From Halobacterium sp. DL1 (GTDB taxonomy: Archaea > Halobacteriota > Halobacteria > Halobacteriales > Halobacteriaceae): a stretch of DNA of 64,000 nt. Location of the stretch: NCBI GenBank assembly GCA_000230955.3, contig CP007060.1, forward strand, positions 2,362,216 to 2,426,215, given 5' to 3'. Of the stretch, positions 23,425 through 49,075 are shown piece by piece; position 1 is the first letter of the stretch, and each line of letters opens with the position of its first letter. The notes beneath the pieces are model-generated. The model had not been told where the DNA came from, made no database searches, and saw nothing but the letters and a program-made list of their open reading frames with translations. The position numbers and the translations under genes were made by a program.

Positions 23425-23531
23425 CAGTTGGGCGCTAGTCGCTGTAGTCCTACCTGCTGCGGCCGACCGTCTCACTTTCGTGACCTCCCAGAAAGCCCCG
23501 GCCCACTCGCTGCCTGCGACTCGCTGCGCGT

Positions 23532-23591
23532 GGTTCGAAAGGCGCGTTGAGCCTTTCGTCATCACGAGAGAGCTATGCTCTCTCGAACGAC
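23532..23591 (+). repeat. Twin-hairpin module A inside palindromic element 1
   Basis: Order: ggttcga, hairpin with stem cgaaaggc/gcctttcg, linker tcatca, hairpin with stem cgagagagc/gctctctcg, then aacgac. The same order with other hairpin sequences recurs at 23788-23853. Confidence 0.7.
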
Positions 23592-23787
23592 TTCACTCGC
23601 TCCGCTCGTTCCAGTGCTTGCTTCGTCTCGGCTAGCGAGCGGACCGCCCCTTCCAGTCCCACCTCAGGCGTCTGGTCAACCGGCGTGGGTGGGACTGGAA
23701 GGGGCGGGCGTCTCGACGAAGGCAGGCGACGCAAGCACCGAGCGACCGAAGGGAGCGAGGCGCACAGCGAGCCTCCCGAGTCGAGAT

Positions 23788-23853
23788 GGTTCGAGAGAGC
23801 TTCGCTCTCTCGTCATCACGAAAGCCCGCGCTATGCGCGGGCTTTCGAACGAC
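23788..23853 (+). repeat. Twin-hairpin module B inside palindromic element 1
   Basis: Order: ggttcga, hairpin with stem cgagagagc/gctctctcg, linker tcatca, hairpin with stem cgaaagcccgcg/cgcgggctttcg, then aacgac. Flanks and linker match module A in direct orientation, while the hairpin stems differ or are swapped yet stay perfectly paired. Confidence 0.7.
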
Positions 23854-23953
23854 GCCCGGGGCTTTCTGGGTGACCTCGTCGGTAGCGGGAGATCCCAGCT
23901 CTGCTGAACAATCCTCTGGAGGAGGCCCACTGCTCGTGAACTAGCACCACCCA

Positions 23954-48816: not shown

Positions 48817-49075
48817 ACCTAGAAAGCCCCGGCCGTCTCGGCGAACCCGGACTCGTTGCGCTCCTCGGCCTTCGGCCTGCGGTACTTACATCGTCCGGGT
48901 TCGCCGAGACGGCCGCCCCTTTCAGTCCTCCCATTGGCCGGTCGGACAGCCGGTACCGGGTGGGACTGAAAGGGGCGGCGTGCTCGCTAACCGAGGCGAC
49001 GTAAGCACTGGAGTGAGCGTAGCGAACGAAGCGCGCAGCGAGCCGCAGGCAGCGAGCACGCCGGGGCTTTCTGGA
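48817..49075. repeat. Long palindromic intergenic element, copy 2
   Basis: Outer arms: agaaagccccgg (48821-48832) and ccggggctttct (49061-49072). Inner arms: gcccctttcagtcctccc (48915-48932) and gggtgggactgaaaggggc (48958-48976). A 20-bp stem at 48832-48851 pairs with 48894-48913, and ggcgtgctcgct pairs with agcgagcacgcc on the right half (about 48977-49063). The right half shares gcgacgtaagcac and ...cagcgagcc with copy 1. The 440-base gap between gpmI and nurA otherwise holds only the nurA promoter area. No coding frame is credible. Confidence 0.72.

Follow-up and report, generated by a model that had tools for sequence, protein, structure and literature searches.

Palindromic intergenic elements of Halobacterium sp. 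DL1 belong to a haloarchaea-wide repeat family of probable IS6-type MITE origin

Two long palindromic elements of Halobacterium sp. DL1 that share arms and a core raise the question of whether they are stray inverted repeats or copies of a dispersed family and, if the latter, how such a family spread and what keeps its fold. Both lie between genes in the window, by which we mean the whole stretch of 64,000 nucleotides analysed here (contig CP007060.1, positions 2,362,216 to 2,426,215). We suggest that both probably belong to a palindromic repeat family spread across haloarchaea, which originated from mobile elements as an IS6-family MITE lineage whose folded body has outlived its mobility.

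Anatomy of the two window elements

Re-inspection of both sequences recovered the arms, the inner inverted repeat and the common core reported in the preliminary description, and fixed the bounds of element 1 at 23490-23867 (378 bp) and those of element 2 at 48821-49072 (252 bp). Each is built from two copies of one ~105-112 nt half-unit in inverted, tail-out order; the greater length of element 1 stems mainly from two units of ~61-67 bp that belong to a second palindromic family and are inserted in its rods. Element 1 is flanked by divergent genes for IF-2B-family (minus strand) and DeoC (plus strand) proteins, and element 2 by divergent genes for iPGM (minus strand) and NurA (plus strand). 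The features, by position in the window, are as follows:

23490 to 23867, unstranded: full element 1, two inverted half-units with a ~30-bp centre and two nested small palindromic units
23490 to 23660, minus strand: element 1 left half-unit, running from core to arm on this strand and split by a nested unit of ~61 bp
23531 to 23591, unstranded: nested second-family unit in the left rod, two hairpins joined by TCATCAC
23646 to 23660, minus strand: core of the element 1 left half-unit, GGGACTGGAAGGGGC
23691 to 23867, plus strand: element 1 right half-unit, running from core to arm and split by a nested unit of ~67 bp
23691 to 23705, plus strand: core of the element 1 right half-unit, GGGACTGGAAGGGGC
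23787 to 23853, unstranded: nested second-family unit in the right rod
48821 to 49072, unstranded: full element 2, two inverted half-units, with a predicted RNA fold of arm/arm helix, left rod, core/core hairpin and right rod
48821 to 48929, minus strand: element 2 left half-unit, predicted RNA fold of -73.9 kcal/mol (z -8.6)
48821 to 48832, plus strand: element 2 left arm AGAAAGCCCCGG, pairing with the right arm at 49061-49072
48962 to 49072, plus strand: element 2 right half-unit, predicted RNA fold of -52.2 kcal/mol (z -2.65)
49061 to 49072, minus strand: element 2 right arm, AGAAAGCCCCGG on the minus strand

Within the window, AGAAAGCCCCGG is matched four times at ≤1 mismatch (mean of 0.21 and largest value of 1 in dinucleotide shuffles) and GGGACTGRAAGGGGC four times at ≤2 mismatches (shuffled mean: 0.32; largest: 2), with the matches to both being confined to elements 1 and 2. 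The second small palindromic family, with two hairpins joined by TCATCAC/GTGATGA, nests in half-unit rods and also occurs free-standing in the DL1 genome; it was seen at 23531-23591 and 23787-23853 of the window and at loci L002, L006, L016, L023 and L024.

The half-unit and its copies in the DL1 genome

A DNA search with element 1 as query yielded 33 matches in the DL1 genome, while a covariance model identified 40 half-units, which by position form eleven full elements and ~18 solo copies. The preliminary description had taken the whole element as the unit of the family; the family is real, but its true unit is the half-unit, solo copies of which are common. In an alignment of 21 DL1 half-units, GGGACTGAAAGGGGC is followed by a stem of 12 bp, and an internal loop separates this stem from a second helix; beyond the helix lie the GACGYAAGCAC / GCGCAGCGAG loops and the apical hairpin, from which the strand returns to end in GGGGCTTTCK. 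The core GGGACTGAAAGGGGC is invariant, the 12-bp stem is variable but paired, and GACGYAAGCAC, opposite GCGCAGCGAG, forms conserved internal loops. In a full element, two half-units stand head to head, with cores inward, arms outward and ~30 bp between them, and paired halves in this genome follow the tail-out order without exception.

Only one overlap with a predicted gene was found among the elements placed against the predicted genes. The position between divergent genes, correctly noted for elements 1 and 2, is not a trait of the family, as nine of the placed DL1 elements lie between divergent, ten between tandem and two between convergent genes, and the divergent setting of the window elements is incidental. 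Solo half-units between tandem genes are in sense orientation in 25 cases and antisense in 14, a bias which is not significant. A general role as terminator was rejected since few copies lie between convergent genes, and a riboswitch-like 5′ leader since neither the gene nor the orientation is fixed.

Distribution across haloarchaea

At an E-value of 1e-6, the covariance model detected the half-unit in 109 of 145 genomes drawn evenly from the class, representing 45 of 58 genera. A scan of ~85,000 species with the exact spaced pattern gave at least 120 matches, and all 80 among the matches listed were haloarchaeal. Relatives carry between 0 and 90 half-unit copies each. Half-unit counts by genome include 40 for G000, 40 for G007, 32 for G010 and 11 for G004. 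Half-units were also found on haloarchaeal plasmids. No match to the half-unit was obtained among phage records, and the matches in IMG/VR were to the 14-base core alone, as is expected by chance for a 14-mer in a collection of that size. The search by DNA comparison and covariance model that the preliminary description had called for thus produced further copies both in the DL1 genome and across haloarchaea.

Fold, covariation and strand polarity

RNAalifold predicted 32 base pairs for the DL1 half-units, of which 22 show two-sided changes. Paired cells amount to 96.1%, against 74.2% in shuffled and 35-43% in slid controls, with a covariation score of 0.569 (control: 0.166). For 105 copies from 80 loci of named genomes, 96.8% of cells are paired and the covariation score is 0.523 (shuffled: 0.129), in an alignment which was fitted to the covariance model and hence leans towards it. 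The variation of internal stems with preserved pairing that had been noted in the two elements is correct for both and extends to the whole family. The preliminary description had made its proposal of a new family, whether of structured RNA or of foldable DNA rather than a frozen duplicate, depend on further copies and covariation; the ~40 half-units in DL1, their presence in 109/145 genomes of the class and covariation far above the shuffled and slid controls bear it out.

The pairing is furthermore polar. On the core-to-arm strand, the 105 copies contain 91 G-U against 15 A-C cells (19 versus 5 positions; P = 0.007), and the DL1 set, which was picked by sequence pattern, contains 18 G-U against 5 A-C cells (position-level P: 0.18). 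This polarity marks the core-to-arm strand as the folding one, and a strand-symmetric DNA palindrome is not expected to give such polarity. Predicted RNA folds of single half-units on this strand have z-values of -2.65 to -8.56 relative to shuffles, while full element 2 is predicted to form an arm/arm helix, two rods and a core/core hairpin at a four-way junction (z -9.6); re-pairing of core and arm in this junction would account for their invariance. In a set of 43 full elements, positions 1, 2 and 4 of the outer arm show covariation from one end to the other, which fits both an arm/arm helix and matched transposon ends, and covariation in an extension of the palindrome into the centre was not significant.

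In eight half-unit pairs matched by position between DL1 and its nearest relative, G010, there are 34 two-sided changes, five one-sided changes with pairing kept and seven changes that break pairing. Two-sided changes in such excess over one-sided ones are more than stepwise compensation gives and suggest hairpin-templated correction or gene conversion, so that covariation alone is no proof of selection on RNA. The half-unit family thus displays the covariation of a defined secondary structure that characterizes structured RNAs, with a possible contribution from templated DNA correction, and the uncorrected conserved loops and the strand polarity are better arguments for RNA than covariation alone. 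At the gathering score, no Rfam family matches the elements, the only Rfam match in the window being a tRNA; at permissive thresholds, the elements gave sub-threshold, mostly miRNA-type matches, which we read as chance matches of long hairpins.

Half-units within IS6-type MITEs of other lineages

The connection to IS6-type MITEs emerged from other genomes and lay beyond the view of a reader of the single window. Many of the single half-units in the relative G011 lie within a common larger boundary, formed by the inverted repeat GGYAGTGTTCAGATAAG, a 17-bp TIR with GG tips, with 8-bp target duplications. The MITEs carrying half-units are 204-282 bp long and contain no transposase gene, and GGYAGTGTTCAGATAAG ends also flank half-units in unrelated haloarchaeal MAGs. 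Among 35 TIR-bounded carriers, nine have perfect 8-bp duplications (0.27 expected) and twelve have duplications matching at ≥6/8 positions (0.76 expected). A full element of Halonotius roseus (L358) lies between degenerate TIRs, with the duplication CAACGATC read by eye on both sides. Furthermore, an insertion sequence of ~700 bp with the GGYAGTGTTCAGATAAG TIR, abundant in G021, encodes a ~211-221-aa protein with a DDE_Tnp_IS240 domain (PF13610; e-value: 5.5e-09, above the curated cut-off). The relatives thus combine a GG-tipped TIR shared with an IS, an 8-bp duplication and an IS240-type DDE domain; 8-bp duplications and GG tips are hallmarks of the IS6 family (PMC7986276). The half-unit is, as such, MITE cargo in these lineages. 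Since MITEs with IS6-type ends of 17 bp and 8-bp duplications enclose half-units and, in one case or more, a full element, an IS6-family DDE transposase probably moves them in trans.

Recently amplified IS6-type MITEs of G011 (L407-L421 and L461), mostly 227-282 bp in size, carry a half-unit, many with clean 8-bp duplications, and some copies hold an extra ~54-bp palindromic insert. One IS left end, GATAAGGATTGAAAGGYGAGGCGG, located just inside the TIR in some copies among L486-L494, resembles the G011 core GGATTGAAAGGGCGAGGCGG; this match, absent from other IS copies, may hint at where the core came from.

Immobile but persistent copies in Halobacterium

The exact TIR GGYAGTGTTCAGATAAG does not occur in the DL1 genome, and no IS6-type transposase match was found in DL1, G010, G007 or G004. 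At the window copies, neither TIR nor target duplication is recognizable, so that the descent of the DL1 copies from IS6 MITEs would follow from homology of the body, and the window copies are described here only as putative relatives of the MITE body. Full elements of the DL1 type show only a weak excess of target duplications (direct repeats: 4.28 versus 3.74 ± 0.33), and half-unit copy number is uncorrelated with transposase number (rho 0.12; P = 0.54).

Compared with G010, which shares ~90-97% identity in the best-matching flanks, 14 of the 18 tested loci are occupied in both genomes: six of eight DL1 loci, one as a mere remnant, are occupied in G010, and eight of ten G010 loci in DL1. The solo half-unit L017 of DL1 corresponds to full element L426 in G010, and the L004 locus is found in full, half-decayed and absent states across the relatives. 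In G009 (L148) and G001 (L154), the genes that flank the L004 locus enclose an extra insert of gene length instead of the element. At two loci the halves have swapped sides, with the DL1 left half corresponding to the G010 right half (identity: 0.90) and the DL1 right half to the G010 left half (0.87), while the hairpin interior of the right half of G010 L137 is flipped. Positions are therefore mostly inherited, while contents have been shuffled. For halves matched by position, identity ranges over ~0.61-0.90 within the rod and over 0.49-0.82 in the flank next to it, the rod being higher in 11 of 14 cases. Precise empty sites were sought between DL1 and G010, the intergenic flanks of which are too diverged for this comparison.

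Origin and possible action of the family

Under the MITE lineage that we favor, the IS6 ends of the DL1 copies would have decayed or never have been present in such form, with the transposase absent, and the copies would remain at ancestral intergenic positions with their fold kept. Turnover would proceed as one half is lost, halves are replaced or change places, and hairpins flip. The core-to-arm strand is most likely present as RNA, which may be transcribed from neighbouring genes or from an IS-like end and may fold into a rod (solo) or a four-way junction (full), acting on the neighbouring transcript without a fixed gene orientation. The element may act either as an RNA hairpin affecting neighbouring transcripts or as a self-correcting DNA palindrome. 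The fullest version of the RNA reading, which we offer as speculative and rather improbable, is a structured RNA found throughout the haloarchaeal class, spread as the cargo of MITEs and able to persist without transposase; the RNA would be strand-specific and would act on neighbouring transcripts. The solo form would be a rod with a GGG/GGG internal loop, and in the paired form core and arm of the two halves would pair anew with each other (GCCCC with GGGGC) to give a four-way junction.

A lesser possibility, which we nonetheless take seriously, is that mobility explains only the origin of the half-unit, which by now would serve the host chiefly as a structured RNA or mRNA element, such as a protein-binding rod or a processing or stability signal. 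Rods are intact in genomes without an IS6-type transposase match (40, 40 and 32 half-units in G000, G007 and G010), positions are common across species while flanks diverge and rod identity is mostly higher (11/14), and the internal loops are conserved class-wide in a strand-polar fold. Gene neighbour, orientation and position are, however, all inconsistent, and the range from 0 to 90 copies among related genomes leaves no indispensable set of copies. The flipped hairpin interior of the G010 L137 right half, the swapped halves (0.90 and 0.87 identity) and the excess of two-sided over one-sided changes (34 versus 5) would all be accommodated by a palindrome acting as DNA alone, in which cruciform or hairpin formation, template switching and ectopic gene conversion keep the arms complementary without selection on RNA. 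We regard this, too, as a lesser possibility; against it, the conserved mismatched internal loops stay uncorrected and the strong excess of G-U over A-C on one strand is not predicted by a strand-symmetric process.

Movement by a hairpin-recognizing HUH (RAYT/TnpA) enzyme, as with the REPs of bacteria or the PATEs of Haloquadratum, which are linked to IS605, appears very unlikely: the inverted hairpin pairs and solo relics resemble REPINs in anatomy (PMC3116915), and the DL1 copies lack target duplications, but the visible insertions have IS6-type TIRs and 8-bp duplications, which HUH transposition does not make. Like REPs and REPINs, the half-units are dispersed intergenic hairpins, single or in inverted pairs, with singlets as relics; unlike them, they measure ~110 nt rather than 20-40 and are tied to DDE/IS6 ends where mobility is visible. 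A chance resemblance, or local duplication of one palindrome, can be practically discounted given the ~40 half-units in the genome, the class-wide copies and shuffles which give none as good.

By description, the SMR-A and PATE elements of Haloquadratum walsbyi are similar in being haloarchaeal, transposase-free and palindromic with nested insertions in the palindromes, SMR-A also being of ~110-bp scale. PATEs are related to IS605 and lack inverted terminal repeats, while SMRs are without duplications and without a known mover (PMC3119063). The inverted arms of the elements described here covary at their outer positions and thus depart from the PATE definition of IS605-type palindromes without terminal inverted repeats (PMC3119063). 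The closest likeness is to archaeal IS6-family MITEs, with which the units of the relatives share the GG-tipped 17-bp TIR, the 8-bp duplications and a TIR in common with a ~700-bp IS; in size alone, the G011 units (mostly 227-282 bp) compare with the two IS6 MITEs, 227 and 336 bp long, that a review of the family mentions (PMC7986276). They differ in the class-wide conserved and covarying half-unit body and in the DL1 copies without recognizable TIRs. We class the family among palindromic repeats that IS6-type MITEs carry; what sets it apart is a body which is conserved and covaries across the class and which outlives the transposase. No published description of it was found in the openly accessible literature, 'undescribed' being provisional as subscription papers and ISfinder lay outside the search.

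As a rule, a MITE has no more than its tips in common with the parent IS, and its body drifts. In contrast, the structure and loops of the half-unit are kept across an archaeal class, even where the transposase is gone, and such stranded yet intact copies raise the question of the hairpin's use to the cell. ERIC and NEMIS are bacterial mobile palindromic repeats which fold when co-transcribed and have experimentally known RNA effects. The half-unit family is likewise one of mobile palindromic repeats, unrelated to these bacterial repeats in sequence, and its putative RNA effect on neighbours would most likely be of the ERIC or NEMIS type. If functional as RNA, it would constitute a large unannotated haloarchaeal RNA family that most genera possess and that could be tested in species amenable to culture. 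Otherwise, it would provide a clean natural system in which to measure the correction, flipping and swapping of DNA palindromes, and a warning that covariation alone does not establish an RNA.

Other arrangements of the half-unit can also be observed. In Haladaptatus (L360:850-1600), the cores of two half-units face each other across ~330 bp with nested inverted repeats inside. G021 (L467-L477) carries ~90 half-units, many of them near-uniform composites in which the second half is replaced by a module GGCGCGTGCC ... CGAGGCTGGGGAGG, with the arm end repeated downstream in some.
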